Shown here: positions 4,546 through 60,283 of the stretch, one piece after another
How positions within the stretch are numbered: position 1 is the stretch's first letter
Layout of the letters: each line of letters opens with the position of its first letter
Source of the DNA: Diacronema lutheri
Taxonomy: Eukaryota; Haptophyta; Pavlovophyceae; Pavlovales; Pavlovaceae
Length of the DNA: 64,000 nt
Direction: 5' to 3'
NCBI GenBank assembly: GCA_019448385.1
Contig: JAGTXO010000072.1
Coordinates: 62,001 to 126,000, forward strand
The notes under the pieces: model-generated
Database searches by the model: none
What the model saw: only the letters and a program-made list of their open reading frames with translations
What the model was told of the DNA's origin: nothing
Translations under genes and position numbers: made by a program

Positions 4546-4592
<47 letters not shown>

Positions 4593-5030: not shown

Positions 5031-5097
<67 letters not shown>

Positions 5098-37391: not shown

Positions 37392-37508
37392 CGCGAGCAG
37401 CGCGAGCAGCGCGAGCAGCGCGAGCAGCGCGAGCAGCGCGAGCAGCCCTCGCAGCCCTCGCAGCCCTCGCAGCCCTCGCAGCCCTCGCAGCCCTCGCAGC
37501 CCTCGCGG
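37392..37508 (+). repeat. Two abutting 9-bp minisatellites
   Basis: About six copies of CGCGAGCAG are followed directly by about seven copies of CCCTCGCAG. Both are open in all plus-strand frames (for example Arg-Glu-Gln then Pro-Ser-Gln in one frame). Confidence 0.9.
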
Positions 37509-37574
37509 CCAGGCCTCGGCGCGGGCGCTGGCGGTCGGCCCGCTGCTCTACCGCCGAGCCATTCGCGCGCCAGC

Positions 37575-38330
37575 ATGCGCGCGAGCAATCGCTTTGAGCC
37601 GCTCCGGTTGGCCAAGGCGGACGTGTCCGTCACCGAGCCCGCCGCCGCTCAGCCCGCCGCCCGGCCCGCCGCCAAGCTCGCCGCTGCCGAGCCCACCGCC
37701 GAGCCCACCGCCCAGTCCACGGCCCAGCCTTTCACCGCGCTCGACGCCAAGCCAGCCGACCAGCCCGCCGTCAAATGCGCTGCCGCCGAGCGCGTTGACG
37801 ACCGCATTGCTGCCGCTGAGGTAGGCGCCGTCGCCGCCACGCTCGCCGCCGCCACCGAGCCTGGCGGCGTTGCCGAGCTCGCCGCCGCCGCCGACGAGGG
37901 CTGCAGGGCGCGTGCCGACGCGCTCGCCAAGCGCGAGACCCGCCACGCGCTCCACCGCGAGCAGCTGTTTCGCGAGGACAAGCGCGCGGCCGGTCGCCTG
38001 ATCGAGCAGTGCACGCTGGGCTCTGCGGACGATGCAGCACGCGCGCGCGCCGTGCTCGAGCGCGTCAAGGCGCGTGGCCACGCGCTGCCTCCGCACCTGC
38101 TGCGGTCGACGAGGCGGCGCAGCGTGGTGCGACGTGCGGCCTCGCGATAGTGGGCGCGCTCAACGACGCCGCGCTCGCCGCGGCGGGCGGTGCATCCGCG
38201 CCGCGCACGTTCAGCGTGGCGGACATGTACGCTGTCGGCGAGCGCCTCCGCGTCGCGCTGACTGGTGCGGCCAGCGGGCGTGCGCCGAGCGGCGCCTGCG
38301 CCGGCGCGGGCGCGGTGCGTGGCGGGGGCA
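37575..38330 (+). CDS. Hypothetical Ala-rich helical protein, frame uncertain near 38.1 kb
   Basis: From ATG 37575 (MRASNRFEPLRLAKADV) a stretch with protein-like composition runs through Ala/Pro-rich sequence into a charged helical region (DALAKRETRHALHREQLFRE, RAAGRLIEQCTLGSADDA). Near 38.1 kb the best-looking reading moves to another frame (CGLAIVGALNDAALAAAGG, TFSVADMYAVGERL), which means an unseen small intron or an indel. No family was recognised. It lies between the USP-like fragment and a second unknown gene on the same strand and could be the distal part of the USP-like transcript. Confidence 0.35.
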
Positions 38331-38449
38331 GTCGCGATCGCGCCGAAGCGCCGCGGCAGACGCGCGGCGCCAAGGCCGCCGCAGACGCCGCCGCCGCTGC
38401 CGCCGCCGCGCCGCCGCCGCTGCCGCCGCCGCCCGCGCTGGGCGCTGGT

Positions 38450-38485
<36 letters not shown>

Positions 38486-38546
38486 CGCCGCCGCGCCGCC
38501 GCCCGCCGCCGCGCCGCCGCCGCCGCCACCGGCGGCGCTCGGCCGC

Positions 38547-39374
38547 ATGCAGCACGTCCTGCCGGTTGCGGGCGGCAGCGCGGCAGGCCGGCGGCTCGCG
38601 GCCATCGCACGGCGGGAGCGCGGCGTGCGCGCGCCGCCGCCCGCCGCGCGCTTCCTCGCCACGCTGCCGCCACCGCCACGCGACGGCCTCGCGCGCACGA
38701 GCAAGCAGGCGCGCGCGAGGCGCAACGCGGACGGACGGCCGGCGCTCGCGCGCGCGGCCAACGCGCGCGCCTTCTACCGCGGCGTGGAGCTCGGCGTGCA
38801 CGCGACGCGCGCCATCGTCGACGCGCGCCACGCCGACCTCCCGCAGGCCGTCTTCGTGGCGGAGGCGCGGGCGATCGTCGCGCGCTCCGCCGGCGGCGGC
38901 GCGCTGCTCGCGCCGGACGACGTGCGCGACCTGTGCGACGCGCAGACGGACGCCGATCGCGCTGCGATCTGGGCGTCGGTGGGCGCGCACGAGGCGACGC
39001 GCATCTTCGCGCTCTTCACGCGCAACGTGAGCATGGCGGGCGCGGCGCTGCTCGTGCTGCACGCGCCGGCGGACGCGCCGGCGCGCGCGCTCGGGCTCGT
39101 GGCGACGCGCTCGCGCGCGCCGTCGACGGGCGCGCCGTGCGACGCGCACAGGGCGCTGGTGCAGCGGTTGGACGTGCTGACGGGCGCGATCGCCGCGGCG
39201 CGAGGCGCGCCGCCGTTCGAGCTCGAGCTCACGCTCGCGCCCGAGTCGCAGAGCACGTGCAACGCGCGTGCGGCCGCGCTGCTCTGCGTGCAGGCCGTCG
39301 CGGACGCGAGCGACCGTCCCGCCGCTAAGGACGCGCTGGCCGCGCTCGACGACGCACTGCGGGCAAGAGGGTAA
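38547..39374 (+). CDS. Hypothetical protein upstream of the Fanzor gene
   Basis: From ATG 38547 (MQHVLPVAGGSAAGRR) a 275-aa frame has balanced, protein-like composition: RAFYRGVELGVHATRAIV, LLAPDDVRDLCDAQTDADRA, THRIFALF-type helices and FELELTLAPESQS. It ends at a stop that overlaps the beginning of the chromodomain-coding frame by a few bases. No domain was recognised. Its position immediately 5' of the chromodomain-Fanzor could mean it is part of the same transcript or element. Confidence 0.4.
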   Translation: MQHVLPVAGGSAAGRRLAAIARRERGVRAPPPAARFLATLPPPPRDGLARTSKQARARRNADGRPALARAANARAFYRGVELGVHATRAIVDARHADLPQAVFVAEARAIVARSAGGGALLAPDDVRDLCDAQTDADRAAIWASVGAHEATRIFALFTRNVSMAGAALLVLHAPADAPARALGLVATRSRAPSTGAPCDAHRALVQRLDVLTGAIAAARGAPPFELELTLAPESQSTCNARAAALLCVQAVADASDRPAAKDALAALDDALRARG

Positions 39375-42300
39375 CGTTCCAGTTCCGGATCAGGTGGCTG
39401 GGCTACGACGAGAGCGCCGACACGTGGGAGCCCGAGGGCAACGTCGACGGGGGCCTCGTCGCCCAGTTCCGCAAGACGCGCGACGAGCAGACGCGGCGCG
39501 CGGGCGGATCGGGCAGCGGCAACGGCGGCGCGGACGCGGCGTCGGCGTCGGCACCGCTTCGCGCGCACGGCGTGTCGGGCGCCGCGGGCAAGCGCGCCGC
39601 GGCGGGTGCCGCCGCGGGCGCGCGCGACGCCGCGGGCGCGCGCGCGCCGAGCGTTCCCCGCGCGCGCGGCGCCGAGAGCGCGCGCGTGGACGAGCCCGCT
39701 GCGCCGAGCGCGCGCGCCGCCGGCGGCGCGGCGGCGCGCACGCGCGGCAGCGTGCTCCCGGGCTTCGTGGTCAAGCGCTCGACGCTCAACGCGGGGCCGC
39801 AGGCGGTGACGGCGCAGCCCGGTGCGCGGAAGGAGCTGCGGCGCCTCGTGGCGACCGTGCACAGGCTCACGACACAGGCGTACCGCGTCATCAACAAGGT
39901 GGTGCGCGACGAGGCTGCGGTGGCGAGCGCGTAGGCCGCCGGCGCGGCGTCGGGCGGTCCGTCGACCAGCGTGCACACGTCGACCACGATGGACGAGGGA
40001 ACCGTCGGCGCGATCTTCTCGGCGATCGGCTGGCACACGGACGAGAGCACGTACGGTGCAGCGCCCCAAGGCAAGCCCGCCGAGCAAGCCGCCGCGCAGA
40101 CCAAGGCGGCGACGGCGCGCGCCGTCGGCGAGATGGCCGAGGGCGTCCAGCCCGTCTGCGCGGTGGGCCTCAAGAGCATCCTCGAGGAGGAGGCGACGCA
40201 GGTGTCCACCGCGTGCCTGATGCACCCATCGCGCGTCGTGAACGGGCTGCTCCGCGACGTCTTCCGCGCGGCAGTCGAGCGCGACGAGGCGCTCGTCGCG
40301 CTGCCCGAGATGCAGCGAAACGCGCGCGTGCGCGAGCTGTGCGAGCGGCTGCTGCGCGGCGACGTGGCGGGCGCGCGCGCCAACTGCCCCGCCGCGCTCG
40401 ACGACCACCTGCCCGACATGGTCCTCCACGGCATCGACTACGAGTGCGCGCCCACGCCCAGGTGGAAGTACGACCGGCACACGACGCGCTACTTCCTCGT
40501 GCAGATCCGCAACCTGCAGCACGTGGCCGAGGGGCAGGCGCTACTCTGCCGGCTCGCGCACATCCACACGCAGCTGACCGGCCGGCCGCCGCGGTACAAC
40601 GCTGCGCACGCACAACGTGCGTGCGGCGCGCTGCTGCCGCTGCCGCCACCGTGCGCCCAAGCGCGCGCGCGCCGGCCGCCGTGCGCGCCGCCCTGCGGCC
40701 AGGTTGGTCACGCGCCCGCGCGCTCGCGCGCCGCGCGCTGCGCTCAGGTGCCGCGCAACGTGCGCCTCAACGCGCCCGCCATCTGGGACACGCTCCCGGA
40801 CGACGAGCGCAAGGAGCTGCGCGCGCGGCTCAAGGCGCTGGACCTGCGCGACCACGATGGCGGGCCGATCGAGTGGACAGGCACAAACGGCAACACCCCG
40901 CCGATGTCGGACGTGCGCGTCAGGTACGCGGTCTTTGCGACGCGCTTCGACTTCTCCAACCGCGTCTTCGACTACGCCGGGCGCGAGCGGCCGCCGACCT
41001 GCCGTGGCACGCGCGGCGCTCGTGGGTGGGCCTCGCGCCGCTGCCGCGCGTGCCGCTCCCGGGCCAACAGCCCGTCACGTCGGTGCTGACGGATGGCGTC
41101 GCCGTGCACGCCGTCGGGACCATCCTCGTGCCGAAGGCGCAGGCGCCGGCTGGCGGCTCGAGCGTCCTGCACCGCTGGCGCCGGCCGGACGGGCGCATCG
41201 CCATCGCGCTCGGCTCCGAGCTGCGGCGGGCCATCGACGAGGAGGAGGCGAGGCGGTCGTCGTCGCGGCCGACCCGAACATGGGCAACATCACCACCTAC
41301 TCTGCGCACGCCGGGCGGGCGGCCGTCTGGCGGCAGTTCACGCAGCGCGCGCGCGCGCGCGCCGCGGGCTTTGCGCGCGAGACGGCCAAGACCAACGTGG
41401 CGCGGCAGCGCGTGCGCACCGTCGGGCGCGGCGAGGAGTTCAGCGTGGAGGCAGACGAGGTGCGGCCTGGCGAGGCGCACAGCGCCAAGGTGCTCGGCGA
41501 GGGCGAGTTCCTCGCCTTCCGCCGCGAGAGCGCGCGGGTGCGCGAGCGCGCCGCCGAGCACGTGTACGATGCGCCGGCGCGCCGGAAGGAGCGCTGGCGG
41601 CGCGACAGCGGCGGGCGATCCAACGCGGCGCGCGTCGCCGAGGCGCTCATCGCGGCGCACTGCGTCGACGGCGTGACGCGCGACCGGCTGCTCGTGTGCG
41701 TGGGCAAGTGGCTGCGCGACCACAAGGGCGCGCAGCCCAAGGGCGCGCCGCCCGCCTTCCAGATGGGGCTGCTGCGCGAGCTGCGGCGGCGCGGCGTCGC
41801 GGCCGTCTTCGTACCCGAGCCGTACACGTCGATGCACTGTTCAATGCCGCTGCTCGCCAAGGGTGGCAGGCTGCAGCGCTGCGGCGCGGTGCTCGCGTAG
41901 GAGCCGCGCCTGCCCGTGGCAAAGGGGGGCACGCGCACGGTGCACGGCGCTCGTCGTCTGCCCGGCGTGCAGCGGCGGCAAGAAACCCGCGCACCGCGAC
42001 TACAACGCCGCGCGCAACATCTTCTACGACGTGCACGACATTGCGGCGCACGCGGCCGGGGGCGCGACACCACGTCGACGCCTGAGCGCTTTGCCCTCGT
42101 GCTCGCCTGGTGGGCGCGCAGTGAGGTGTGCGAGCTCGAGGAGCGCATGGTGCACGGCGAGGGCGACGACTACGACGACGAGGGCGACGGCGACGGCGAC
42201 GTTGACGACGGCGACGGCGGCAGCGGCGACGGCGGCGGCGGCGACGGCGGTGGCGACGACGGCGGCGGGCGCGGCGGCGGTGGCGGCGGCGGCTCTCGCG

Positions 42301-42380
42301 CCCGCATTCCCGCCCGCAGAGCTGCGGGCGCCAGTGCCGGCGGCGGCAGCGCGCGCGGGCCGAAGCGCGGCCGGCGTTGA
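39371..42380 (+). pseudogene. Chromodomain-Fanzor (TnpB-like RuvC nuclease), probably decayed
   Basis: The 5' part encodes a chromodomain core (FRIRWLGYDESADTWEPEGN), followed in the same frame by a linker and a Fanzor-like N-terminal helix (VATVHRLTTQAYRVINKVV). Fanzor segments continue downstream: YFLVQIRNLQHVAEG, RLNAPAIWDTLPDDER, MSDVRVRYAVFATRF, RuvC-I VVVAADPNMGN near 41.27 kb, LLVCVGKWLRDH, RuvC-II VPEPYTSMHC near 41.83 kb, zinc-ribbon Cys pair VVCPACSGG and RuvC-III HRDYNAARNI near 42.0 kb. An acidic and Gly-rich tail ends in a basic PKRGRR stop. The three RuvC acids are present, but the reading frame changes about five times. At ~40.98, ~41.26 and ~41.94 kb there is no room for an intron, so this looks like a decayed copy. 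Confidence 0.75.
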
Positions 42381-43103
42381 CGCACGGCCGAGCCACGCAG
42401 CGGTCGACGCTATGCCGACTCTGCCCGGGTCGTGCGCGGTGGCGACGCGTGCCGCGCGCCGCACGCCCGTGCACGCCGCCGCCCATAACCAAGCGCGCCG
42501 CGCCAGGCAACCCGCTCGAACAGCCGTCCGGATCACGGACGCTCGCCACGGCTCGTCGGCGCGCGTCACCTGCGCCGGCGGCCACGGCGCTGTCTGCTCC
42601 GGCCTCGTCTCGAGCAGCCCGACCACTGCTCACCGCCCGCACGCCGCCGCAGCAACGCTGCGCGTCGTGCTCCCGCGCTCGCCAATCGAAGAGCTCCCTC
42701 ACCCAAAGACTAAAATACGAACGGCCCGCGCTGCACTAACGACGCTGACACGCAGGTCAGCAGGGAGGGCGTGCACGGGGCCGAGGCGTGACGAAGGGAG
42801 CGAGCGAAAGTGTGTACGCAGCGTCGGTCCGAAGTCAGGGCGTCGACCCTGTGCACACCGGCAGCGGGGACGGCCGGGAGGGCAAGGGCGCGGCATGGGT
42901 GGTCACCCACACACGCCTAGCCCGCACTGCCCACCGCGCGCACGCTTCACCCGTGCGCCAAGCTGGGCGGCATGTCACCAGGCGCCTAGCGAAGGCCCCC
43001 GTGGCTGCCGCTGGGAGAGCACGCGCCGCAGCGCAGCAGCCACGGGCGCAGCAGCAGCGCCGCTCGTGTGCGCACCTGTCTTGATCAGTCACGGCCCGCG
43101 GCG
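42381..43103. other. Intergenic region
   Basis: About 720 bp between the Fanzor gene and the 3' end of the Ser-Pro-rich glycoprotein gene. No coding stretch could be supported and no terminal inverted repeats of a Fanzor-bearing element were found by eye. Confidence 0.4.
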
Positions 43104-46100
43104 TTAGACTCGACCGGTGGTCACGACAGCGGCCTGCCGCCCCGGCGCTGGCGTCGACGAGCGGCCCTTGGCAACCGCCTGGTGGCGGCGGTAGCACACG
43201 ACGCCGAGCGCCAGCGATGCGGTGAGTAGCACGACGCCAAAGAAGCCGCCAAGCACGCCGCCGACGATTGCGCTCGTGCGTGCAAAGGCCGTGCGGCCCT
43301 CGAGCTCACCCGTGGCTGAGAAGGCGAAGACGGTTGTCTTCGTCACGCGCGGGTCGGACTCAACGGCGATGCCCGTCTCCTGCGCGAGCGCCTCCTTAAG
43401 CCTGCGCACGATGGCTGCGTCGCGCATCTTGGCCGCCACCGACAGCTCGTCGGTGTACACGCCCTGTTGCGCATAGGCGACGAAGCTGACGAGGACGGAC
43501 GCGGCTGTGACGCCCGTGATCTTCACGTCCGCGTTGAGGACGCGTGCACCTGCGCGCTCGAACGCACCCTTCTTATCGTCGGTCCATGCAGAAATGTCGC
43601 CGCCCATGACGATCTCGCCCTCGGTCTCAGTGCGCTCGCCGAGTGCTGGGGGTGGCGATGGACTCGGCGGAGGCGGCCGCCGCGGCGGCGGCGAGCTTGG
43701 CGGTGGTCTTGGCGGCGGGCTCGGAGGCGGCGACGGCGGTGGCGACGGCGGTGGCGACGGCGGTGGCGGCGGGCTCGGAGGGGGCGACGGCGGCGGCGAC
43801 GGCGGCGGCGGCGGGCTCGGAGGGGGCGACGGCGGGGGCGACGGCGGCGGCGGCGGGCTCGGAGGGGGCGACGGCGGCGGCGACGGCGGCGGCGGCGGGC
43901 TCGGAGGCGGCGACGGCGGCGGCGACGGCGGTGGCGGCGGGCTCGGAGGCGGCGACGGCGGCGGCGACGGCGGCGGCGGCGGGCTCGGAGGGGGCGATGG
44001 CGGCGGCGACGGCGGCGGCGGCGGGCTCGGAGGGGGCGACGGCGGCGGCGACGGCGGCGGCGGCGGGCTCGGAGGGGGCGACGGCGGCGGCGACGGCGGC
44101 GGCGACGGCGGCGGCGACGGCGGCGGCGGCGGGTTCGGAGGGGGCGACGGCGGCGGCGACGGCGGCGGTGGCGGGCTCGGAGGGGGCGACGGCGGCGGCG
44201 ACGGCGGCGGCGGCGGGCTCGGAGGGGGCGACGGCGGCGGCGACGGCGGCGGCGGCGGGCTCGGAGGTGGCGACGGTGGCGGCGACGGCGGCGGCGACGG
44301 CGGCGGCGGCGGGCTCGGAGGGGGCGACGGCGGCGGCGACGGCGGCGGCGGCGGGCTCGGAGGGGGCGACGGTGGTGGCGACGGCGGCGGCGACGGTGGC
44401 GGCGGTGGGCTCGGAGGGGGCGACGGCGGCGGGGGCGGGCTCGGAGGGGGCGACGGCGGCGGCGACGGCGGCGGCGACGGTGGCGGCGGGGGCGGGCTCG
44501 GAGGGGGCGACGGCGGCGGCGACGGCGGCGGGGGCGGGCTTGGAGGGGGCGACGGCGGCGGCGACGGCGGCGGCGGCGGGCTCGGAGGGGGCGACGGCGG
44601 CGGCGACGGCGGCGGCGGTGGGCTCGGAGGGGGCGACGGCGGCGGCGACGGCGGCGGCGGCGGGTTCGGAGGGGGCGACGGTGGCGGCGACGGCGGCGGC
44701 GGTGGGCTCGGAGGGGGCGACGGCGGCGGCGACGGCGGCGGCGACGGCGGCGGCGGCGGGCTCGGAGGGGGCGACGGCGGCGGCGACGGCGGCGGCGGCG
44801 GGCTCGGAGGGGGCGACGGTGGCGGCGACGGCGGCGGCGACGGCGGCGGCGGCGGGTTCGGAGGGGGCGACGGTGGCGGCGACGGCGGCGGCGGCGGGCT
44901 CGGAGGTGGCGACGGTGGCGGCGATGGCGGCGGCGACGGGGGCGGCGGTGGGCTCGGAGGGGGCGACGGCGGCGGGGGCGGGCTCGGAGGGGGCGACGGC
45001 GGCGGCGACGGCGGCGGCGACGGCGGCGGCGGGGGCGGGCTCGGAGGGGGCGACGGCGGCGGCGACGGCGGCGGCGGCGGGTTTGGAGGGGGCGACGGCG
45101 GCGGCGACGGCGGGCTCGGAGGGGGCGACGGCGGCGGCGACGGCGGCGGCGGCGGGCTCGGAGGGGGCGACGGCGGGGGCGACGGCGGCGGCGGCGGGCT
45201 CGGAGGGGGCGACGGCGGCGGCGACGGCGGCGGCGGCGGGCTCGGAGGCGGCGACGGCGGCGGCGACGGCGGTGGCGACGGCGGTGGCGGCGGGCTCGGA
45301 GGGGGCGACGGCGGCGGCGACGGCGGCGGCGGCGGGCTCGGAGGGGGCGACGGCGGGGGCGACGGCGGCGGCGGCGGGCTCGGAGGGGGCGACGGCGGCG
45401 GCGACGGCGGCGGCGGCGGGCTCGGAGGCGGCGACGGCGGCGGCGACGGCGGTGGCGGCGGGCTCGGAGGCGGCGACGGCGGCGGCGACGGCGGCGGCGG
45501 CGGGCTCGGAGGGGGCGATGGCGGCGGCGACGGCGGCGGCGGCGGGCTCGGAGGGGGCGACGGCGGCGGCGACGGCGGCGGCGGCGGGCTCGGAGGGGGC
45601 GACGGCGGCGGCGACGGCGGCGGCGACGGCGGCGGCGACGGCGGCGGCGGCGGGTTCGGAGGGGGCGACGGCGGCGGCGACGGCGGCGGTGGCGGGCTCG
45701 GAGGGGGCGACGGCGGCGGCGACGGCGGCGGCGGCGGGCTCGGAGGGGGCGACGGCGGCGGCGACGGCGGCGGCGGCGGGCTCGGAGGTGGCGACGGTGG
45801 CGGCGACGGCGGCGGCGACGGCGGCGGCGGCGGGCTCGGAGGGGGCGACGGCGGCGGCGACGGCGGCGGCGGCGGGCTCGGAGGGGGCGACGGTGGTGGC
45901 GACGGCGGCGGCGACGGTGGCGGCGGTGGGCTCGGAGGGGGCGACGGCGGCGGGGGCGGGCTCGGAGGGGGCGACGGCGGCGGCGACGGCGGCGGCGACG
46001 GTGGCGGCGGGGGCGGGCTCGGAGGGGGCGACGGCGGCGGCGACGGCGGCGGGGGCGGGCTTGGAGGGGGCGACGGCGGCGGCGACGGCGGCGGCGGCGG

Positions 46101-47267
46101 GCTCGGAGGGGGCGACGGCGGCGGCGACGGCGGCGGCGGTGGGCTCGGAGGGGGCGACGGCGGCGGCGACGGCGGCGGCGGCGGGTTCGGAGGGGGCGAC
46201 GGTGGCGGCGACGGCGGCGGCGGTGGGCTCGGAGGGGGCGACGGCGGCGGCGACGGCGGCGGCGACGGCGGCGGCGGCGGGCTCGGAGGGGGCGACGGCG
46301 GCGGCGACGGCGGCGGCGGCGGGCTCGGAGGGGGCGACGGTGGCGGCGACGGCGGCGGCGACGGCGGCGGCGGCGGGTTCGGAGGGGGCGACGGTGGCGG
46401 CGACGGCGGCGGCGGCGGGCTCGGAGGTGGCGACGGTGGCGGCGATGGCGGCGGCGACGGGGGCGGCGGTGGGCTCGGAGGGGGCGACGGCGGCGGGGGC
46501 GGGCTCGGAGGGGGCGACGGCGGCGGCGACGGCGGCGGCGACGGCGGCGGCGGGGGCGGGCTCGGAGGGGGCGACGGCGGCGGCGACGGCGGCGGCGGCG
46601 GGTTTGGAGGGGGCGACGGCGGCGGCGACGGCGGGCTCGGAGGGGGCGACGGCGGCGGCGACGGCGGCGGCGGCGGGCTCGGAGGTGGCGCCGGTGGCGG
46701 CGACGGCGGCGGCGACGGCGGCGACGGCGGCGGGCTCGGAGGGGGCGACGGCGGCGGGGGCGGGGAGGGCGGCGGCGCAGGCGGGCTCGGAGGAGGCGGC
46801 GGCGACGGCGGCGGGGGTGGGCTCGGAGGCGGCGAGGGCGGGCTCGGGAGCAAGCACGCGCAGAGCCGCCGGTAATCGACGGATGCGGTTGAGCCGCACG
46901 CCGCCGACGCCGACGTGGCAGTGCTCGTGGTTACATGGCACTCGCCAACAAAGTTGCCCGTCGGATTGCCGATCATGGGTCGACTGGTTTTACTGCTCGG
47001 GAGGTTGGACACCTTCGGGTAGGACACCGTGCAATATCCCGCGCCCACGGCGGCAAAGTCGTCGATGAAGTCCTCGAAGACGGTTTCGACGGGCGCCGTG
47101 AACGCGCGGAGGGCGTCGCCGTCGCAGGTCGCGCCGAGCGCTGTGCACGCGGTGGTGCACGACACTTGTATGTCCGCGAGGTACCAGCTGCTCCCACCGA
47201 AGGCGACGGGCCCTTCCGTCGCCGCGTGCGCGACGCTGAGCACGAGGGGCAGAAGCGCGGCGCGCAT
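43104..47267 (-). CDS. Secreted single-pass hydroxyproline-rich-type (SPPP-repeat) surface glycoprotein
   Basis: A single-exon 1,387-aa protein. It begins with a signal peptide (MRAALLPLVLSVAHAA), then a ~125-residue Cys-containing globular domain (SWYLADIQVSCTTACTALG through RRLCACLL). More than 1,000 residues of SPPP/SPPPP repeats follow, with occasional Asn, as in extensins and volvocine pherophorins. A second globular domain (GGDISAWTDDKKGAFERAGA through TVFAFSATGE) precedes one membrane span (IVGGVLGGFFGVVLLTASLAL) and a basic cytosolic tail. The expected role is a cell-surface or extracellular-matrix protein with O-glycosylated hydroxyproline rods. The antisense strand of the repeat is fully open (Gly/Asp-rich) but has no start or family logic. 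The frame is intact for its whole length. Confidence 0.85.
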   Translation of the reverse strand: MRAALLPLVLSVAHAATEGPVAFGGSSWYLADIQVSCTTACTALGATCDGDALRAFTAPVETVFEDFIDDFAAVGAGYCTVSYPKVSNLPSSKTSRPMIGNPTGNFVGECHVTTSTATSASAACGSTASVDYRRLCACLLPSPPSPPPSPPPPPSPPPPPSPPAPPPSPPPPPSPPPSPPPSPPSPPPSPPPAPPPSPPPPPSPPPSPPPSPPSPPPSPPPNPPPPPSPPPSPPPSPPPPPPSPPPSPPPSPPPSPPPPPSPPPSPPPPPSPPPSPPPSPPPSPPPPPSPPPSPPPNPPPPPSPPPSPPPSPPPSPPPPPSPPPSPPPSPPPPPSPPPSPPPSPPPSPPPPPSPPPSPPPNPPPPPSPPPSPPPSPPPPPSPPPSPPPSPPPPPSPPPSPPPSPPPPPSPPPSPPPSPPPPPPSPPPSPPPSPPPSPPPPPSPPPSPPPPPSPPPSPPPSPPPSPPPPPSPPPSPPPSPPPPPSPPPSPPPSPPPSPPPPPSPPPSPPPSPPPPPSPPPSPPPSPPPPPSPPPSPPPNPPPPPSPPPSPPPSPPPSPPPSPPPPPSPPPSPPPSPPPPPSPPPSPPPSPPPPPSPPPSPPPSPPPPPSPPPSPPPSPPPPPSPPPSPPPSPPPPPSPPPSPPPSPPPPPSPPPSPPPSPPPPPSPPPSPPPSPPPSPPPPPSPPPSPPPSPPPPPSPPPSPPPSPPPPPSPPPSPPPSPPSPPPSPPPNPPPPPSPPPSPPPSPPPPPPSPPPSPPPSPPPSPPPPPSPPPSPPPPPSPPPSPPPSPPPSPPPPPSPPPSPPPNPPPPPSPPPSPPPSPPPSPPPPPSPPPSPPPSPPPPPSPPPSPPPSPPPSPPPPPSPPPSPPPNPPPPPSPPPSPPPSPPPPPSPPPSPPPSPPPPPSPPPSPPPSPPPPPSPPPSPPPSPPPPPPSPPPSPPPSPPPSPPPPPSPPPSPPPPPSPPPSPPPSPPPSPPPPPSPPPSPPPSPPPPPSPPPSPPPSPPPSPPPPPSPPPSPPPSPPPPPSPPPSPPPSPPPPPSPPPSPPPNPPPPPSPPPSPPPSPPPSPPPSPPPPPSPPPSPPPSPPPPPSPPPSPPPSPPPPPSPPPSPPPSPPPPPSPPPSPPPSPPPPPSPPPSPPPSPPPPPSPPPSPPPSPPPPPSPPPSPPPSPPPPPSPPPSPPPSPPPSPPPRPPPSSPPPRRPPPPSPSPPPALGERTETEGEIVMGGDISAWTDDKKGAFERAGARVLNADVKITGVTAASVLVSFVAYAQQGVYTDELSVAAKMRDAAIVRRLKEALAQETGIAVESDPRVTKTTVFAFSATGELEGRTAFARTSAIVGGVLGGFFGVVLLTASLALGVVCYRRHQAVAKGRSSTPAPGRQAAVVTTGRV
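43718..46686 (-). repeat. 1,521-bp tandem duplication within the SPPP tract
   Basis: Rare markers recur at constant offset: GGGTTC at 44131 and 45652, GGTGGTGGC at 44371 and 45892, and GTTTGG at 45081 and 46602, each 1,521 bp apart. Copies therefore span about 43718-45165 and 45239-46686 and appear nearly identical. 1,521 is divisible by three (507 codons), so the protein frame is kept. Confidence 0.85.
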
Positions 47268-47903
47268 GGTCTCGCCAATATTGGACCCTGGGCTTAACCA
47301 CTAACAAACTCAACTGGCGGGTGCGCGTCCGGTGGCGAGCCAAACGCTCGATTTTTCCGGAGGATAATCTCTGCTGATAATTATGGGAAAACTCACCGTC
47401 CGCTGCCGCCATCGTGAGCTCCGCCGGGGCGGGGGTGTCAAATTTGCCCGACGATTTTAAAGTCTGACAGCGTTCTCCATCCGCTGCGCTGGCGTGAGTG
47501 ACCCGTCGCGTCGCGACGATGGCCGCGCGTGGCGATGTGACGCGACGATCGTCACCGTCGCGGCGTCGCGTGACCGTGACGAGTGACGGTCGCGAAGATC
47601 GTCGCGACGATGAGCGCACTAAGTCTTTCCAACTTTGCCCCCTGCGGCTACTGGCGTCGCCCACGACCACGTCGCAAAGCTTCGCCATGAACCCGCCCTC
47701 AACCTGCTCGCCTCGCTCGCTCGCAATTACGCTGGGACGTTTGCGCGGCGCGAGGACGCGGAAATCTTTGGCTCCGTGCTCGCCGGCGTGCCGCCGGCCG
47801 GGCGCGCGGCACTGCGGCATCGGCGCGTGTCTACCGTCGATCTTGTCGTCGTGCTCAATGGCACGGGCTCGGCGCCCCAGCTTTAAGTCGACTGCGTACT
47901 GCC
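47268..47903. promoter_or_regulatory. Intergenic region with TGACG/GTCGCGAC palindrome cluster
   Basis: The first ~230 bp is unusually AT-rich for this window (for example near 47341-47395) and likely carries the promoter of the surface glycoprotein gene. From 47497 to 47615, TGAC(G/C) and CGTCGCGACGAT-like words are dense, including a perfect 14-bp palindrome ATCGTCGCGACGAT at about 47598-47611. A short protein-like stretch on the plus strand (47.66-47.88 kb) was not accepted as a gene. Confidence 0.45.
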
Positions 47904-49310
47904 CTACGCGCTGCGGCCACAGGCCTTTGGGCGGCGGGCGGCGGCCGTCGGCGGCGAGCGGCGGCGCGCGTGCGCCCGATAGACGGGTTGCCCTTCGACT
48001 TGCAGCCGGGCCAGGTGGGCCCAACGCAGGCGCGCCGCAACTCTTTTCCGCCGGTCCGCGCGCTGGTGCGAGCTGCGCCGCGCTCTCGATCGCGTCGAGC
48101 GCCGCGCGCTCGCACCCGTCGCGCAGCGACCGGCGGCGGCGGGCGCGGCGCGCGCGCTCTCGCGCCACAGCGCGTGCGCGCCTGTCACGGCGAACGTCGC
48201 GGCGCGCAGCCGCGCGCGCGCCGGGACGCGCACGTCGGCGCGCGCGGCGGGCGCGCCGACGATCGGCGCGAGCGCATCCGCCGCGCCGCGCGTGTCGCCG
48301 TCGCGGAGCAGCACGAGCGCGCGCTGCAAGCTCGCCACTTGCCGCCAACCGCGCGCAACATTTGCGTCCGCGTCCAGCTCCGCCTTCGTGCGCACGTCGG
48401 CGGGCCGCGCGGCATTCGACTCGTCGGATGCACCTTCTGGCCCGAGCGCACGCGCGTCATGGCCGCGCGCGAGCGCGACGACCGCGTGCGTGATCGCGCC
48501 GCGCAGCCGCTCCGCCGCCTCGAAGTGCTCGCCGCGCTCGAGGAGACGGAGCGCGAGCGCAGCTTCGCCGCCACCGCCGCTGCCGCCGCCGGCAAGGCGT
48601 TCGCGCTGCTCGTCGGCGGACGGAGCGTCGGCGGCGGCGGCGAGCGTCGCGGCCGCGCGCGTGACGTCGCCCGCCGCGCACTGGCGCAGCGCCTCGCGCG
48701 CGGCGCGCGCGGCGACGCTCGCGCTCATCGCGGCGCCGACCGGCGCGCCGTCCATGCCGGCATCGTCGCTGGCACCTACGAGCTGCGCCGCGAGCGCCTG
48801 CAAGCGTTTCGTGCGCTCCGCGGCGCAGAGGGGGAGGGGAAGCTGCGCGGATGAGCGCGCTGCGGCGCCGAGCCCGCGTGCGCCATCCGCGCCGGCCGAG
48901 CCCATCGCGCGCAGCGCGGCGGACGCGTCGCCGTCGTTGGCCGCGCACGCGGCTGCGCGCAGCGCTGCGGCGGCGGGCAACGCGGCGGCGGCCTCGGCGG
49001 CTGTCGAGATGGCCGGCGCGCCTGCGCTGTTCGCGCCGTCTGCCGCGAGCTCGGCGAGGGTTGCGAACCGCACGGCCGCGCCGTCGAGGTCGCCCGCGAC
49101 AATCCGCGCGATCGCGCAGCGCGGCGGACGGTGGCGGCGCGCTGGCTACGGAGGGAAAGCCTGCGGCGAGCGCTCCGGCGAGCGCGGCACGCGCGTCGGC
49201 GCACGTGCCAACGGGGGCGTCGACGTCGAGCGCGCGCGCGGCGCGGCGGGCGACGTCGGCCGCGCGCGCGCGGTCAAGCGCGTCCGAGCGGGGCGCGGGC
49301 TCTAAGCCGA
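47904..49310 (-). CDS. Hypothetical Ala-rich helical-repeat protein, possibly broken
   Basis: Helical, TPR-like blocks read on the minus strand: AETFGLEPAPRSDALDRARA, GTCADARAALAGALAAGFPS, VRFATLAELAADGANSAG, GEHFEAAERLRGAITHAVV, RQVASLQRALVLLRDGDTRG and SLRDGCERAALDAIESAAQ. They do not share one frame: the reading changes near 49.11 kb and near 48.16 kb, by one base with no obvious intron. It is therefore either decayed or contains unresolved splicing. The family is not recognised. Most of it (from 48664 outward) is duplicated in inverted orientation at 63354-64000. The 5' end was placed after a T-rich stretch that could be an intron end. Confidence 0.4.
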
Positions 49311-50303
49311 ACGTCTCGGCAAAAAAAACACGTCGTGCACACCTCGGCGAAGGCGGAGGCGCTTGCCGCCGGCGCGGCGGCGGCTGCGACGGCGGGCGGA
49401 TTGCAGTGCGGAAAAAATGATCCTTTCCGACCTACGGGGTAGGTACATGAAGCGCTCGTTCATAAACAAGGACGGTGTAGGCGCAGGACATATGTAGGGC
49501 GCCTGTGCGCCCCATACATGATCGCAACCCTGGCCCGCCGCACTCTTCTCCGCCGAGACAGGGTGCGCCCTCTGGGCCGCCGCATCCAGAAAGCAACGCT
49601 CCCCCGGCCAGCACGGCCGGCGGCCCACAGCTGGGCTCGCCCAAACTGGGCTCGCCCAAACTGCGGCAGACGAGGTAACCTCGTTAGCGTGACGCCGGCG
49701 GCCTGTGCCATCGGCGCAAGCTCCAAGCAGAGGTGGACCGCACAGTAGTCTGGGCGAACGCGAAGGGAGCGTTTCGCGGCAAACCTGGCCAGGCCGATCG
49801 ATGAAGTAGACCTTGGGGACACCTGGCTCAAAATTTGAGCGACTTTGGCCTGGTGGGTCTTGCGCGACGGTCGCGCGAGCGTGTCGGACGGCCGAACGAG
49901 GGGCGCGCGGCGCCGACCACGCGCGTGCGGGTGATCGAGGCGGAAAGTGCGCGGACCTGCCGAGCCGATTCGATGGGCATGGTGCATGGAGCCACGCGCC
50001 AAAGTCTCGCGACATTCGGACCAGCCAATCTGCCGGACGAGCACCTGCCGGCGCGGCGCAGCCTCGCACGGTGAAGGACGCGCCGCATGCGCGGCCTTGC
50101 GCGTGGCGTGCGGGCGTTTGGCGGGCGGAGGCGGGTGCTGAGGGCACAGGACTGACCACGCACGGCCCGTTGGCAGCCACACGCACGCCTCAGCCGAGCA
50201 AGGGCGCCCATCCGCCTCACCGCAGCGCGCCGGACGCGCTGTCCATGCCATGCCCGCCATCCCTACGGCACATTTCAAAAAGGGCTGCCCTAACCTAGCT
50301 TAG
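49311..50303. other. Non-coding flank of the Harbinger element
   Basis: About 1 kb with no supported gene. It has a more balanced base composition than most of the window and short direct repeats such as TGGGCTCGCCCAAAC in tandem near 49625-49660. It could be upstream sequence of the hypothetical gene or an older unrecognised element. Confidence 0.4.
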
Positions 50304-50526
50304 GCCCGTTCCCAGCAAACTTTTGAGCCCGACAAAAGTCGCCGAAAAATCGGCTCGGCGGGGACCGCTGTTCCCAGCCACCCTTTTGCCGGAATTCGGA
50401 TTATTGCTGTTTCACACGGGCGGGCGGGAAACGACCAACGGCGTGGTGCGGCGCGGCGACCATCGCCCGGCCGTCAAACTTACACCCGTGCCGGCCAGGC
50501 GGCGCGCTCTTCGTGCTCGATCAACT

Positions 50527-51981
50527 ATGCAGGAGGACGCCGACTTGCACATCGCTGTGGTCGGAATGGTTTTAACGCTCCTCGCGACCGTCGCCGCGCA
50601 CGACGTGCTGATGATCCGCAGGCGCCGGAGGTTGACGGGCAAGGCGCGCTTCCGTGACCGGCTGCACGCCATGCGCAAGATGGACGAGATACCCGAGAAG
50701 GAGTTCAAGCGCATGTTTCGCCTCGACCTCCAGACGTTCCAAGCCGTCCTGAAGAAGATCGAACGTCGCCTCGAGCGACCCATGCCGGAACGAGCCAAGG
50801 CGCGTGGTGACGCGCTGCCGCCCAAGCTCATGCTCGCATGTGCTCTGCGCTTCCTCGCGGGAGGCTCATACCTCGACATCTGTTTTGGATTGGAGATTTC
50901 TCGGTGCTCGCGGCGCGGCGCAGACAACGCGCGTCCCCCTCCCCCGCCGAGCGCGCGCGCGGCGCGCGCGCCACGCGGCCGCGATCACGAACGACCCCAC
51001 CTCAGTGCCCTTGGCGCCCTCTTCGGCTCAACACAGCACTCGCGCGCTCCCATGCTTGCCCGACGCCGCGCGCTCGCCCGACGCCATGCGCTCGCTCGCG
51101 CTGCGCAGGACCAGCTTTAACCGCTCGGTCGACGATGTCGTGGATGCGATCAATGCCGAGTACACCTTGGACTTTGACCCTGGGAACCTCGCGCAGCTGC
51201 AGCACCTTGCGGACGAGTGTGGGCGCATTTCAAGGGCTCGTACATGCGAGGCATCGTCGGCGCCGTGGACGGAATCGCGGTCAAGATCCGCTGCCCAAGT
51301 GGCGACGTGCAGAACCCGGCTGCGTACTTTAATCGCAAAGGCTTTTACGCGATCGTCGTGCAGGCTGTCTGCGATGCGCGCCGTCGATTCATCTTCGTCT
51401 ACGCCAACTCGGAGGGCAGCACCCCGGATTCGGTTGCATGGGGTTCCTCGTCCCTTGGTGAGTTTCTCAGCAGCACGGGGCTGCCGTCTGGCTATTGCAT
51501 CGTCGGCGACGCAGCGTACCCGCTGTCTCTCTCCTTGCTGACACCATACCCGGGCGACAAGCTGCCGTCCGACAAAGACGCATTTAACTACTGGCAGTCG
51601 CACTACCGCATCGAGATCGAGTGCTCCTTCGGCATGCTAAACCGCCGCTGGGGCATCTTCTGGCGCCCGCTCGAGATGTCGGTCGGCAAGGCAACTCGCG
51701 TCATCACGTGCTGCATGAAGCTCCACAACATCTGCATTGACGCTGAGGACGAGGCGTTCGAGATGGGCGAGATCGACTGGGACGGCCTGCCGGTACCGTC
51801 GTCGCCGTTCGACCCGCAGGACGAGTGCGAGCTGGAGGAGCTCTCGCTCGCGCACCGGACCCAGCGCCGCAACGAGAAGAATGATCTGCGCGAGTACCAC
51901 CGTGAGAACCTCAAGCAGATGGGCTTCCAGCGGCCCAGGGTGGGCAGCCGTAAGCGTCGTCGCGGCGAAGTGTGCGCCTAG
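50527..51981 (+). pseudogene. PIF/Harbinger (HARBI1-like) transposase
   Basis: From ATG 50527 (MQEDADLHIAVVGM) exon 1 runs to 50903 and ends after LRFLAGGSYLDICFGLEIS. An intron 50904-51108 restores phase at TSFNRSVDDVVDAINAEYT. The catalytic DDE_Tnp_4 domain follows: first Asp in IVGAVDGIAVKI, second in IVGDAAYPLSL, Glu in IECSFGMLNRRWGIFWRPL, plus AYFNRKGFYAIVVQAV and the LHNICID motif. At about 51217 the frame slips by one base with no room for an intron, so the ~415-aa enzyme is interrupted. The C-terminus is basic (GSRKRRRGEVCA). It would cut and paste the element. An identical inverted copy is at 60683-62137. Confidence 0.8.
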
Positions 51982-52380
51982 CCACACACAATCGTAGGGC
52001 CAAAAATCCCTGCCGAGACACGCTTGTGCGCGTATCCACGCGCCTATCCATCCGCGCCGTAGCGCGGCAGGCTCCTTGGTCCGCCCCGAATCGCTGGCCT
52101 TTGCTGGTCATGCACGTCTCGGCCGGTGCGTGACGAGTGGCGCGCGTCATGTGTGAATTTAAGATGGACTGGTGCGCACGCAGGAGCACGATAATCGTTG
52201 TTGCTTTGCCGCCTGGCCCTCAGGCGCACAGGCACAGCACACGCGCGCCGTCGGGCTCGCGCGCCGCCGGCAAGCCACGCACGCCTCCGCGCGCGCGCAC
52301 GCGCCAAACCGAGCCGCACGCAGCAGCCGCGTAGGCAGGTACGCGCCGCGCACGCTTACGACGAACGGCTGCTTCGCCAC
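51982..52380. other. Spacer between convergent Harbinger genes
   Basis: About 400 bp between the stop codon of the transposase and the stop codon of the Myb-like gene on the other strand. No coding signal; presumably 3' untranslated and terminator sequence of both genes. Confidence 0.5.
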
Positions 52381-52507
52381 TCACACACTGTCCTCCTCCT
52401 CGCGCTCGGCGCGCAGCTTGGCGCGCATCTTGTCGGCGACAGCCTGAAATTCAGCAGCGGCCGCGTCATCGCCGGCGGCTTTGGCAAGGCGCACCAGCTC
52501 GAAGTAG
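52381..52507 (-). pseudogene. Harbinger Myb-like protein, C-terminal piece
   Basis: On the minus strand this encodes FELVRLAKAAGDDAAAAEF, QAVADKMRAKLRAEREEEDSV and a stop, an acidic/basic coiled-coil-like end. Its upstream continuation is at 58519-58954, separated by the Copia insertion. The junction copies carry the AGTAG target duplication (52503-52507 and 58519-58523). Confidence 0.6.
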
Positions 52508-52780
52508 TGTTGGCATTGTGTCTGTGCTGCATGTGTGAGTGTGACTGCATGTCCGTGTGACACGCATGGCGGATGTCCGTCGGCGGATCCCATTGGTGGC
52601 CGGCGAAACGTTTCGCCGGGCTTACTTGGGGGTTCGGTGTCTTAACGAAGACGGAAAGAAACGAAGACCGCGCTCGGCCAGGCCGAGCACTAGGTGGCGC
52701 TCGACTCGCCTGGTCCGCCCATCGGGGACAGGGAGTCGGAGTGAGCTACTGCGTCGACAAGTTGATCGGGAAGTCTAGCA
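52508..52780 (+). repeat. Copia 5' LTR
   Basis: A 273-bp repeat starting TGTTGGCA and ending TCTAGCA, preceded by the target-site copy AGTAG. It matches the 3' LTR at 58246-58518 with three single-base differences by eye and is identical to the inverted LTR at 59884-60156. Confidence 0.9.
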
Positions 52781-55700
52781 TGACGTCAAGCCGCAGCGGC
52801 GACAACCTGATCATCAAGAACATCGGCGACCTCAAGGACCAGAAGAAGGTGGATGACCTCGAACTGTTCGTCAGGGACTACGTGATCAACATGAAGAAGG
52901 AGGCGCTGCTGGGCAACGCCGTGCTCTCCGGCGGGTTGGGAGAGAAGGCGATAGCCGCGACCTACCCCCAGTTCCGCGCAAGTGTCTAGGTCGACCAGAA
53001 GTACGCGGAGCTGGAGATCATGTACGCCAGGCTCGCAGAGCGCGAGCACTACGCGCGCGAGATCGCGCGCGTGACGATGGAGGCGGACGAGGACAAGATC
53101 AAGAGGCTGGAGCGCCTGATCGCAGGCATCAACGCGCCCTTTGCCGCCGCGATGACCACGGCTGCGACGACCACGACTGCCGGCGTCGCCGGCACGAGCG
53201 CGCTGCCCGTGCTCACCACGCCCACGCTGAGCGCGGAGCAGATGGCGCAGATCGAGAAGTACGAGTTTGAGATCGTGGAGCTCAGGCACAAGATCCGCAT
53301 GACCGACTACCGGATGCAGAGCGACATCGCATCGATCCAACCCATCAACGGCAGCTTCACGTTCGACGCGCAGCTCACCCAGATCTTCAACCAAGTGAGT
53401 GAGCTGGCACGAGAGGCGCTGGCGCTCAAATGCTCGCCGCCGGTGTTCATCGAGCTGGAGCGCGAGGGCATGATCCTCAAGAATGTGCTCCCCGACGCCG
53501 CCAACATGACCGCCTTCGCGATCCTGTGGGCCGCCATCGATAAGCACCGGCGCCCGGCGGACATGTACGAGTACCTGCGGCTCTCCCGCAGGATGTCAAC
53601 TCGGGTCAAGATTGGTCAGGACGGCAACGTGTCCACGGACACGTACATCACCGCCGTCAACGACTGCATTCAGGACGACATAACCCTCGCGGCGGCACCC
53701 AAGGCGGCAAAGAAGCTCGCCACGGTCTTGGAGTGCCTCGACGTGAACGACCCGGCGCGCCTTTTCCTCCGGGAGTACCTGCGCATGGACTTCATGCTCG
53801 TGACTGAGCAGGACGTCGAGAAGCTCATCGACGCGATCCGTCGCTCGGACAAGCACATCAAGACCAAGTTCGACACGCGCTCAACGCGCGCGCAGCTCGC
53901 CGCGGTGGCCGTCGGCCAGCCCGCAGCGAAGGGCTCGGCGGGCACGACCTCGCGCGACGCGTCACGCACAACCGACTCGCAGCCGCGTGGCTTCAAGTGC
54001 TACAACTGCGGCGAGTCTGGCCACATCGCGAAGAACTGCACGAAGGAGAAGAAGGTCGGTGGCAAGCAGCCGGGCGCGAACACGAAGTCGGACGCGGGCA
54101 AGAAGTCGCTCATCGTCGACAACAGCAGCGCGGCGACGTCCGGCGCGACCCGGCTGGGCGCGATCTTCTCGCTCTCGGCGACGGCGCCAGACGGAGGCGC
54201 GCTCCTCGCGGCGACGGCAGCTGCGACCGGCCAGGACCGCCCGAAGCCGCGCGCCGACTATGCGTACGACCTGCTCATCGACTCAGGCTCGGAGAAGAAC
54301 ATCGTGCCGGCCGAGCTGCTCGTCAACTGCAAGAAGCTGGACAAGCCGCAGACGCTCGTCTTCGGCAACGGCACGCAGGAGGTCGTCAAGGTCGCCGGAG
54401 ATCTGCTGCTCCACCTCGACGAGGCCAGCGCCGCCGAGTCCGGCGGAAAGCCGCGTGTCGTGGTCAAAGCCTGGGCGTCCGACTTGGTGGTGATGCCGAT
54501 CCTCTCCGCGGCCTGCCTCGCCAACGCCGGCGTTCGCATCACGTTCTCGCGCAACGGCCACTACGCGGACTTCCGCGCCGTCGGCAGCCCGCTGGTGCGC
54601 CTGGACGAGCAGGCCAAGGTGAAGGTGTGGCTCGCGCGGACGGCTTCGACCGCGCTCAAGTCCAACCCGGCGCTCGTCGCCGCCGTCGCGCAGCCACCGG
54701 GAAACTAAGTCGCCCGCCGGCCGGTCCAAGCGAGGAGGAGCTTCGATTATGGTCGATCAGAGCGGGCACAACGGACAAGGACCTCCTGACGCGTACGATG
54801 GCGCGCGTCGGCGGGATGGCGGAACGCAAGCATGACGCGCTCGACGAGCAGTCGGCGGCGTCGATGGTCCGCAAGTCGTTCAAGGACGCGATGCCGACGG
54901 GCGCGCCGTCGCCTCGGCTTCCGCTACGGGATGATCCTGGTCGACGGCTACTCGCGTCGGTGGCAAGTGTACGCGCTGCGCACGCTGGCGGAGAGCGAAA
55001 TCGCGCTCGCGCTGCAGTGGTACGCGCAGCTGTTGGGGACGGGGGCGATGCACATCTCCCACTGGACCCTCGGCTCGTCGTTCGGGCGACGCAGCATCCA
55101 CACGGATGGCGGCACTTCGTTGATGGCCGCATCTGTCGAGCGCGCGCTGGCGCAGCTCGGCTTCTCTTCGACGGTTACCTCCGCACCCGACTCGCCGAGT
55201 TCGAACGGGGTGGCGGAGCGCGCGATTCGTTCGCTCAAGACCCGTCTGCGCGCGCTCATGACGCGCGCGGGCGGTATACCCATGCACGACTGGCACTTTG
55301 CCGCGTGGCATGCGGTGGCATCGCGCAACAGGCTCGCTTCGCAACGTATCGCGCAGGCGGGTGAGCGCGACGAGTATCGGTCGCCGGAGGAGCTCTTCTT
55401 CGGCGTGCCGACTACGTTCAAGCACCACGTGGCCTTCGGGGCCAGGTGCCGGGTGCTGCTGGTCGGGGCTCGCGCGCAGGCGCTGGGCACGCTCCGCCAG
55501 CGCGCCGTGCTCGGGCGCGTCTACCTCTGGGGTGGGCACGGCCTGCAGGTCCGAGGCGTGTTTCGTTACGTCCTCGGCTATGTCGTCCGCTGCGACGACG
55601 GTACCCTTTTGTACTCACGCGATGTGTGGGTCGACGAGACGGACATCGTCGAGGGGGGGTTCTCATCGCTTGGCGCCGCACCGCAGCGGGCTGGCGTGGG

Positions 55701-58518: not shown

Positions 58519-58954
58519 AGTAGCGCTGCAGGTTCTCGGCGGCCTTAACTGCCAGCGACTCGCTGAGCGACTTGCTCGGCTTGGGCTCGCTCTGGCGTTG
58601 CAGGAAAAGGGTGAAGTTCTTGCACATCTCGCCAATATTCTCGATCGGCAGCAGCGACTCGTCCCCAGCGCGCTTGGCATTCCTGCGCTTCGGCAGCGAT
58701 GCGATTCCGCCGCGCGCAGTCATGCAGCAGCCCTCCTCGGCGCCGAGCCCGTCCGGCAAGCTACGAGTGAGGCTCTGTCCGCCGGGAAGCGAGGCGAGAT
58801 CGCGCACGATGTAGTGGAACGCCATGACCGTGACGTCGCCGTTGCTCACGAAGTGTGGGAAGTTTGAGTGGTCGTTCTGGCCTGACCGCGCGAACTTCGC
58901 GTGCGCCTTTGTGTAGTCGCTTTTCAGCGCGTTGTAGATCTCCTTGAGCTTCGC
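58519..58954 (-). pseudogene. Harbinger Myb-like protein, central piece
   Basis: On the minus strand this reads AKLKEIYNALKSDYTKAHAKF, then SGQNDHSNFPHFVSNGD and TVMAFHYIVRDL, followed by a linker with a basic SLPKRRNAKRAGDES segment and a helical end (ESLAVKAAENLQRY) that continues at 52507. The SGQND/F-x-x-F pattern resembles Myb/SANT-like second proteins of Harbinger elements, which bind element ends and help import the transposase. The N-terminus is absent: at 58955 the sequence switches to inverted Copia gag. Family assignment is moderate; the interruption is clear. Confidence 0.55.
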
Positions 58955-60156: not shown

Positions 60157-60283
60157 CTACTTCGAGCTGGTGCGCCTTGCCAAAGCCGCCGGCGATGACG
60201 CGGCCGCTGCTGAATTTCAGGCTGTCGCCGACAAGATGCGCGCCAAGCTGCGCGCCGAGCGCGAGGAGGAGGACAGTGTGTGA
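60157..60283 (+). pseudogene. Inverted copy of the Myb-like C-terminal piece
   Basis: Mirror copy of 52381-52507, here on the plus strand, ending with the same EREEEDSV stop. It is cut off from any 5' part by the LTR. Confidence 0.6.

Follow-up and report, generated by a model that had tools for sequence, protein, structure and literature searches.

Does the chromodomain found at a locus of the haptophyte Diacronema lutheri belong to the same protein as the Fanzor-type nuclease that follows it and, if so, what kind of genetic element encodes such a protein? The locus lies in the window analysed here, 64,000 nucleotides of contig JAGTXO010000072.1, for which an earlier reading (hereinafter, the original prediction) had proposed that a chromodomain and a Fanzor are fused. 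According to passages of PMC10432273, Fanzors are RNA-guided nucleases, and help in the self-copying of transposons has been proposed for them. We found that the window copy is a decayed, 5'-truncated and internally deleted fragment of a giant DNA transposon. The protein is best read as a mobile-element Fanzor with a predicted built-in chromatin reader of the type that recognizes methylated lysine 9 of histone H3 (H3K9me). We assign a rough probability of 0.6 to the full interpretation, namely, a dead copy of a DNA transposon of about 31 kb whose chromodomain-Fanzor fusion would combine RNA-guided cutting with chromatin tethering.

Using three pieces of the window copy as protein queries against the assembly (43,492,796 bases in 103 contigs), we obtained scored matches at at least 150 places each for the N-terminal part (201 amino acids) and the RuvC part (215 amino acids), and at 115 places for the middle part. 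Because the first two parts each recur at so many places, chance resemblance is excluded. All three lists include the window copy itself and, on the same contig, an inverted twin identical to it; the remaining listed copies are 88–91% identical to the window copy at the protein level in the N-terminal part (the first part of exon 1), 93–95% in the RuvC part and 69–91% in the middle part. The original prediction had looked to intact relatives, and many are present in the same genome, with the chromodomain, the linker and the N-terminal half of the Fanzor in one frame. It had also named, as the outcome that would speak against it, a chromodomain that never adjoins the Fanzor in relatives. The opposite was found: of the 150 best RuvC matches, at least 129 have a chromodomain or N-terminal match 1.9–2.4 kb upstream on the same strand, and several of the 21 RuvC matches without a listed chromodomain show the middle part.

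At about 75% GC, long open frames alone are weak evidence of coding, and the window contains many spurious ones. The intact copies provide other indications. In the copy on contig C9, the G+C content by codon position delineates a single coding frame that can be followed from about 12 kb upstream, with values at third positions (GC3) of mostly 0.82–0.99 (0.67 in one bin) and second positions mostly the lowest. In the C3 copy, GC3 stays at 0.94–0.98 through the chromodomain, the linker and the N-terminal half of the Fanzor, and then the phase switches; the switch coincides with a GT-AG intron. Among the loci with both flanking words, to which the intron comparison was confined, the intron starts with GT and ends with AG in all 14 distinct versions other than that of the window, is 151–154 nucleotides (nt) long, mostly 152, and its removal connects ...RYN with VPRNV... 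without any shift of frame. The window copy has lost the GT, so that one seeming frame break (approximately 40601–40747) is the normal intron of the family that has lost its donor.

In an intact copy, the chromodomain matches the Pfam Chromo family at E=1.1e-12 (48.1 bits against a cut-off of 25.1). A profile built from ten copies matched 32 PDB sequences at E<=0.01, with CDYL-type chromodomains on top and HP1, Clr4, LHP1 and MPP8 also among the matches, which places the domain in the predicted methyl-lysine-reader class. At the positions that we take, from HP1, to form the aromatic cage, 13 of the 14 distinct intact sequences have Y/W/Y, the W partly by construction given that the sequence filter itself required it; the exception, a sequence common to L071 and L080, has GN, that is, N in place of the second Y. 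Thus, the domain resembles the chromodomains of HP1, CDYL, Clr4 and MPP8 in its profile match and cage positions but, unlike these, it precedes a Fanzor in the protein chain instead of forming part of a host regulator, and it is a predicted reader. Host chromodomain genes distinct from the element were detected as well, at L001 (C30), L002 (C5) and L003/L004 (C69); these have better Chromo scores, and the frame of one of them carries two chromodomains 0.7 kb apart.

The second exon encodes the catalytic half. In 17 of the 20 RuvC loci that were read, it remains open (572–582 amino acids) and keeps all the motifs checked, namely, TDG, the RuvC-I aspartate, E-x6-C, CPAC and the RD of HRDYNAARN; the other three are a frameshifted locus and the window copy with its twin. 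The Fanzor1 C-terminal motif has been given as D-X(125,275)-[TS][TS]-X-X-zinc finger-X(5,50)-RD (Bao and Jurka 2013, PMC3627910), and exon 2 of L054 accommodates it with D175, T360-S361, C364, CPAC at 404–407 and R416-D417. In passages of PMC10711439, Yoon et al. describe the rearranged RuvC-II glutamate and a nearly exclusive DPG as Fanzor fingerprints, and TDG as typical of Fanzor1. The rearranged glutamate is present in the D. lutheri protein (E357 of PEPYTSMHC, six residues before C364), as is TDG (residues T116-D117-G118 of exon 2, retained by 18 of 20 loci; its placement in a WED domain is putative). The zinc ribbon family PF07282 was matched in all four members scanned, in L054 with E=1.9e-6 and 28.4 bits against a cut-off of 26.3, although the cysteine spacing (C364, C378, C404, C407) is unusual. 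The RuvC triad with the rearranged glutamate, the zinc ribbon and TDG are shared with SpuFz1 and GtFz1, as these are described in passages of PMC10432273, PMC11423790 and PMC10711439; unlike them, the D. lutheri protein has DPN instead of DPG and shows no detectable match to a solved Fanzor. Searches of viral contigs with either exon as a single-sequence query found no relatives.

The family has sharply defined ends. In 17 of 20 aligned loci, the sequences are near-identical up to a 3' border and then diverge; of the remaining three, one leaves its contig, and the window copy and its twin are without the terminus. The last 22 nt of the element occur, with up to two mismatches, at 221 places (116 forward and 105 reverse), and a 31-mer near the 5' border at 202 (103 and 99 on the two strands); the reversed-pattern controls for both were found nowhere. 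When 97 listed 5' ends were compared with 100 listed 3' ends on the same strand within 60 kb, 62 of the 5' ends found a partner, at distances of about 31.0 kb (26 pairs), 21.5 kb (13), 29.0–29.5 kb (9), 26.0–26.5 kb (6) or others (8). The full-length element is about 31 kb, the commonest paired length being 31.0 kb. With about 200 copies, most of the paired ones 21–31 kb long, the family would make up roughly a tenth of the 43-Mb genome.

The 5' end bears a hairpin, which in the C9 copy is a perfect 18-nt palindrome (GTACGACCCGGGTCGTAC) and in C49 is shorter by one base; the 3' end has a GGGGC..GCCCC stem whose loop varies. Long terminal inverted repeats were rejected: among the listed ends (97 x 100 compared), no 3' 22-mer lies within 300 nt of an opposite-strand 5' end. 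An asymmetric terminal inverted repeat matches at 9 of 10 positions but is equalled by 102 of 2000 shuffles. Helitron2 elements insert between T and T, usually with no target-site duplication; in the D. lutheri element, no preference was apparent by eye at the 17 3' junctions and four 5' ends inspected. In several contigs, one edge lies only a few bases from a 3' terminus of the element (C1:1-22, C12:1-22, C8:187117-187138, C3:444879-444900, C32:562134-562155), and 5' ends likewise lie at contig edges (C32:25, C49:17 and L089 at the start of C72). These edges likely reflect assembly breaks at repeat borders and may alternatively represent element DNA in a free, linear or circular, form.

A large share of the family arose by recent multiplication, given that, among ten other distinct second exons compared with that of L054, four differ by 1–4 of 1,722 nt; five differ by about 19–43, and one, different in length, was left out. 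In exon 2, the ratio of nonsynonymous to synonymous substitution rates (dN/dS) is 0.40–0.73 in five divergent comparisons and 1.07 and 1.79 in two comparisons with 2–3 changes; with so few changes and GC3 near saturation, these values are too little to lean on.

The remainder of the element encodes other proteins. The PIF1 helicase (PF05970) has at least 150 scored matches genome-wide, and in 76 of the 85 listed ones (contigs C1–C49), the 5' end of the family lies about 3–5 kb upstream on the same strand; in the three copies compared by hand (C9, C82 and C1), 22.9 kb separate PIF1 from the chromodomain downstream of it. Ahead of the chromodomain, the long frame includes an exonuclease of the RecE/lambda type (PHROG 434, E=7.2e-16; TIGR03033, E=9e-6, and Pfam YqaJ, E=0.01, both below their cut-offs), which in L081 occupies about residues 439–630 of the same long frame as the chromodomain; compared with the PDB, this part yielded nothing meaningful. 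To our knowledge, such an exonuclease is unusual for a Helitron-like element. By eye, the giant frame in L082 and L081 also shows repeated, partly degenerate modules resembling cysteine proteases, with no such match in Pfam.

This gene complement and the terminal features suggest a Helitron2-like element that probably moves by rolling-circle-type transposition. The closest parallel is with Chlamydomonas, where Fanzor1 is already known from Helitron2 elements that insert after TTTT (passages of PMC3627910). The D. lutheri element resembles CRe-1, -2 and -3 of that alga in the C-terminal motif, the intron-containing gene and the terminal hairpins. Unlike it, the CRe elements are described as non-autonomous, and the passages of PMC3627910 that describe them name no chromodomain, whereas the D. 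lutheri element spans about 31 kb and carries PIF1, the RecE-like exonuclease and a chromodomain-fused Fanzor.

One mechanism is the most likely. The 3' gene of the element, interrupted by a single intron, ends in a chromodomain that a linker connects to the Fanzor1-type nuclease. The Fanzor half would bind RNA from the 3' end of the element, and the RNA-loaded protein would cut matching DNA, for example, sites without the element, so that repair of the cut copies the element in. The chromodomain half, with its aromatic cage of the H3K9me-reader type, would keep the nuclease at marked chromatin. A further step, tentative and to our mind rather doubtful, is that in each round of transposition, the chromodomain takes the Fanzor ribonucleoprotein to H3K9-methylated, silenced chromatin marked by the host, where cutting and copying would occur and from which the 31-kb element could spread in a small genome.

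Several observations weigh against the interpretation of the element as a chromatin-tethered, RNA-guided Helitron2-like transposon. The RuvC-I motif reads DPN (ADPNMGN), not DPG, in 18 of 20 loci, with the catalytic aspartate kept, and the first CxxC of the zinc ribbon is altered to CSMP. No solved Fanzor was matched by sequence, the best related protein being Cas12f1 (E=0.033), and the AlphaFold models of the two exons are poor (mean predicted local distance difference test scores of 36.6 and 40.8). In exon 1, dN/dS is 1.6–4.6 in the three comparisons with enough changes (pairs with at least 12 changes, L043 left out), the counts being small. Among the listed ends, no partner was found for 35 of the 97 5' ends or for 39 of the 100 3' ends. 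The HUH Rep domain PF14214 (Helitron_like_N) has a single match genome-wide, at C63, and is therefore no feature of the approximately 200-copy family as modelled, although a divergent Rep may lie in the approximately 13 kb between the 5' end and the giant ORF that are unread; a canonical Helitron_like_N identity was rejected on this count. PF20209 (DUF6570) gave nothing either, but its control also matched nowhere. Because no HUH Rep was found, the label Helitron2-like is provisional. Finally, the 3' ends are not clustered: for 55 of them, on 13 contigs of known length over 400 kb, the median distance to the nearest neighbour is 138 kb, compared with 102 kb in simulations, with 8 ends having a neighbour within 50 kb (16 simulated) and 8 located at most 35 kb from a contig end (4 simulated). 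Clustering as a sign of heterochromatin targeting was accordingly rejected. This dispersal does not favour strong targeting to large blocks of heterochromatin; it may be compatible with targeting of small, scattered marked sites.

The same dispersal fits the alternative that survives best, a possible albeit not a likely one, under which the chromodomain does not steer the nuclease. It would instead serve the whole polyprotein, in helicase- or exonuclease-linked replication or in nuclear retention, or else be cleaved off. In favour of such a polyprotein, the C9 frame stays open, with GC3 periodicity, over about 12 kb upstream and includes the RecE-like domain; against it stands the position of the chromodomain directly N-terminal to the Fanzor, with which it is retained. 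Next comes the view, which we hold to be unlikely, that the fusion is real but that the nuclease is no longer RNA-guided or catalytic and acts as a DNA-binding, chromatin-tethering or self-regulating factor. The DPN motif, the altered first zinc pair and the high dN/dS of exon 1 in a few comparisons point this way, as does the lack of a distinctive RNA structure in five 3' stretches that were folded (z -0.2 to -2.4). Speaking against this view, 17 of 20 loci retain the catalytic D-E-D together with TDG, exon 2 has the dN/dS values below 1 given above in its five divergent comparisons, and the chromodomain is kept as well.

A third explanation, very improbable in our estimate, is that the chromodomain comes from a chromoviral (Ty3/gypsy) integrase and merely adjoins a Fanzor element. 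Chromodomains of transposon polyproteins are indeed best known from long terminal repeat (LTR) elements (passages of PMC6338049 and PMC12477816). In the whole genome, however, there are 4 matches of the integrase core rve and 16 of the reverse transcriptase RVT_1 compared with at least 150 of the chromodomain; all the listed chromodomain matches but the first four score nearly alike; the upstream frame contains the RecE-like exonuclease, and Pfam detects no integrase in the part scanned. Together with the recurrent pairing of chromodomain and RuvC, the rve counts refute this explanation for the family, barring a very divergent integrase in the unread part. A chromovirus identity of the element was rejected given the few rve and RVT_1 matches, and that of a retrotransposon or Polinton given that there is hardly any integrase signal (in a scan without PolB). 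The likening to chromoviral integrases in the original prediction thus holds as an analogy and not, with rve at four matches, as a statement of kinship. Least probable of all is an artefact of assembly or of misread frames, which could draw on the abundance of chance long frames at 75% GC and on the several contigs with an edge only a few bases from an element terminus but is at odds with 17 loci that have different 3' flanks, over 200 termini, domain matches over curated cut-offs, GC3 periodicity and the exact intron phase.

Fanzor1 in Helitron2 elements and chromodomains on retrotransposon integrases being known, what would be new in the transposon-borne fusion is the joining of a histone reader to a Fanzor. 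We know of no described RNA-guided-type nuclease with a histone reader in its own chain. Among the literature matches listed, none reports a chromodomain-Fanzor fusion, with the Fanzor survey of Jiang et al. 2023 outside this coverage; the passages of PMC6338049 that name the chromodomain and Fanzor describe no such fusion. In the available text of three Fanzor papers, words starting with 'chromo' occur twice in PMC10432273 (both times 'chromosome') and not at all in PMC10711439 and PMC11423790; PMC3627910 has one such word, outside the passages cited here. The chromodomain integrases of Ty3/gypsy elements, as in Ectocarpus (passages of PMC12477816), likewise place a chromatin reader on a mobile-element protein; unlike these, the predicted reader of D. 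lutheri is part of a nuclease of the RNA-guided type that a DNA transposon encodes. The paper on the D. lutheri NIVA-4/92 genome gives a GC content of 73.25% and 22.9% repeats, with LTR elements followed by long interspersed nuclear elements as the majority of those annotated, and the portion of its text that was searched has no word starting with 'transpos' or 'helitron'; the paper also describes three strand-specific RNA-seq libraries (PMC8379373). Should the fusion function in the way its anatomy implies, chromatin-targeted RNA-guided cutting is a problem that evolution has already solved; this would bear on the service that Fanzors render to transposons and on genome tools. With its many near-identical copies, the family is probably a living system for testing the role of Fanzor in transposition.

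Returning to the window, the copy can now be delimited (Table 1). Comparison with the element loci by blastn places three pieces there, the first two as tabulated and the third at 39350–42737, which meet or overlap at approximately 38377–38538 and at 39350–39355. The span given in the original prediction, 39371–42380, captures the chromodomain-Fanzor region, that is, the 3' part only of the element fragment. The proposed chromodomain core is borne out by the match of frame 39329–39931 (+) to PF00385 (32.3 bits against the cut-off of 25.1, profile positions 10–52 of 53); the start of the domain, including the first cage Y, is absent because the adjoining 950 bp or so are deleted. From the chromodomain, the frame continues into the conserved N-terminal stretch of the Fanzor and then hits a stop at 39932–39934. 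All the other parts proposed, namely, the Fanzor-type N-terminal part, RuvC-I, RuvC-II, the zinc ribbon and RuvC-III, are also present, and the decay of the copy, likewise part of the proposal, follows from their distribution: the N-terminal part, RuvC-I/II and the ribbon with RuvC-III sit in three different frames with stops. RuvC-I reads DPN here, too, in a shifted frame, and the DNA of the exon 2 remnant, broken in its reading frame, is 91% identical to that of the intact L054 and L046. In this broken copy, Pfam detects no nuclease family at E up to 1, and Rfam has no match in window positions 37500–43200.

Table 1 Features of the decayed transposon copy in the window
Feature	Position	Strand	Basis
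Decayed giant-transposon copy	38097..42737	+	blastn with element loci L082, L081, L008, L054, ~87-97% identity
Giant open reading frame (ORF) fragment upstream of chromodomain	38097..38538	+	L082:1118-1545, 87% identity, 445 aligned positions
Giant-ORF fragment	38377..39355	+	L081:3147-4112, 94% identity
Junction of ~950-bp deletion	39350..39355	+	L008 1-575 stops at 39355, L008 resumes with 1528 at 39350; 6-nt overlap
Chromodomain core	39353..39475	+	Pfam PF00385, E=9.6e-8, residues 9-49 of frame 39329-39931
Linker and Fanzor N-terminal half (exon 1), broken by stop at 39932	39476..40600	+	Protein comparison with family
GT-AG intron remnant, donor lost in window copy	40601..40747	+	15 distinct segments compared
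Exon 2 remnant: WED-like part, RuvC I-III, zinc ribbon, acidic/glycine-rich tail	40748..42380	+	
RuvC-I motif ADPNMGN	41262..41300	+	Invariant in alignment A1
RuvC-II/TS motif VPEPYTSMHC, glutamate at E-x6-C spacing	41800..41850	+	
Second half of zinc ribbon and RuvC-III, CPAC...HRDYNAARN	41956..42040	+	In another frame in window copy; PF07282 in intact copies
Element 3' non-coding end, without last part of intact 3' terminus including hairpin	42381..42737	+	

The window contains other features of note. Adjoining the 3' end of the element, a frame of 1,398 amino acids at 43104–47300 (-) consists mostly of PPPSPPP repeats with non-repeat ends; by eye, it has a C-terminal membrane anchor and resembles a cell-surface protein of the pherophorin type. 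Further on, an inverted repeat of 5,055 nt with arms that are 100% identical (48664–53718 and 58946–64000; contig C22, 101–134 kb) flanks a Copia-like reverse transcriptase, RVT_2, in frame 54790–57102. The identical inverted twin of the window Fanzor copy lies at 131–134 kb of C22. The inverted repeat on this contig is either a recent inverted duplication or an assembly fold-back at the contig end. In the left part of the window, positions 1442–8089 (+) contain an acetyl-CoA carboxylase gene (Carboxyl_trans, Biotin_carb_C, ACC_central).

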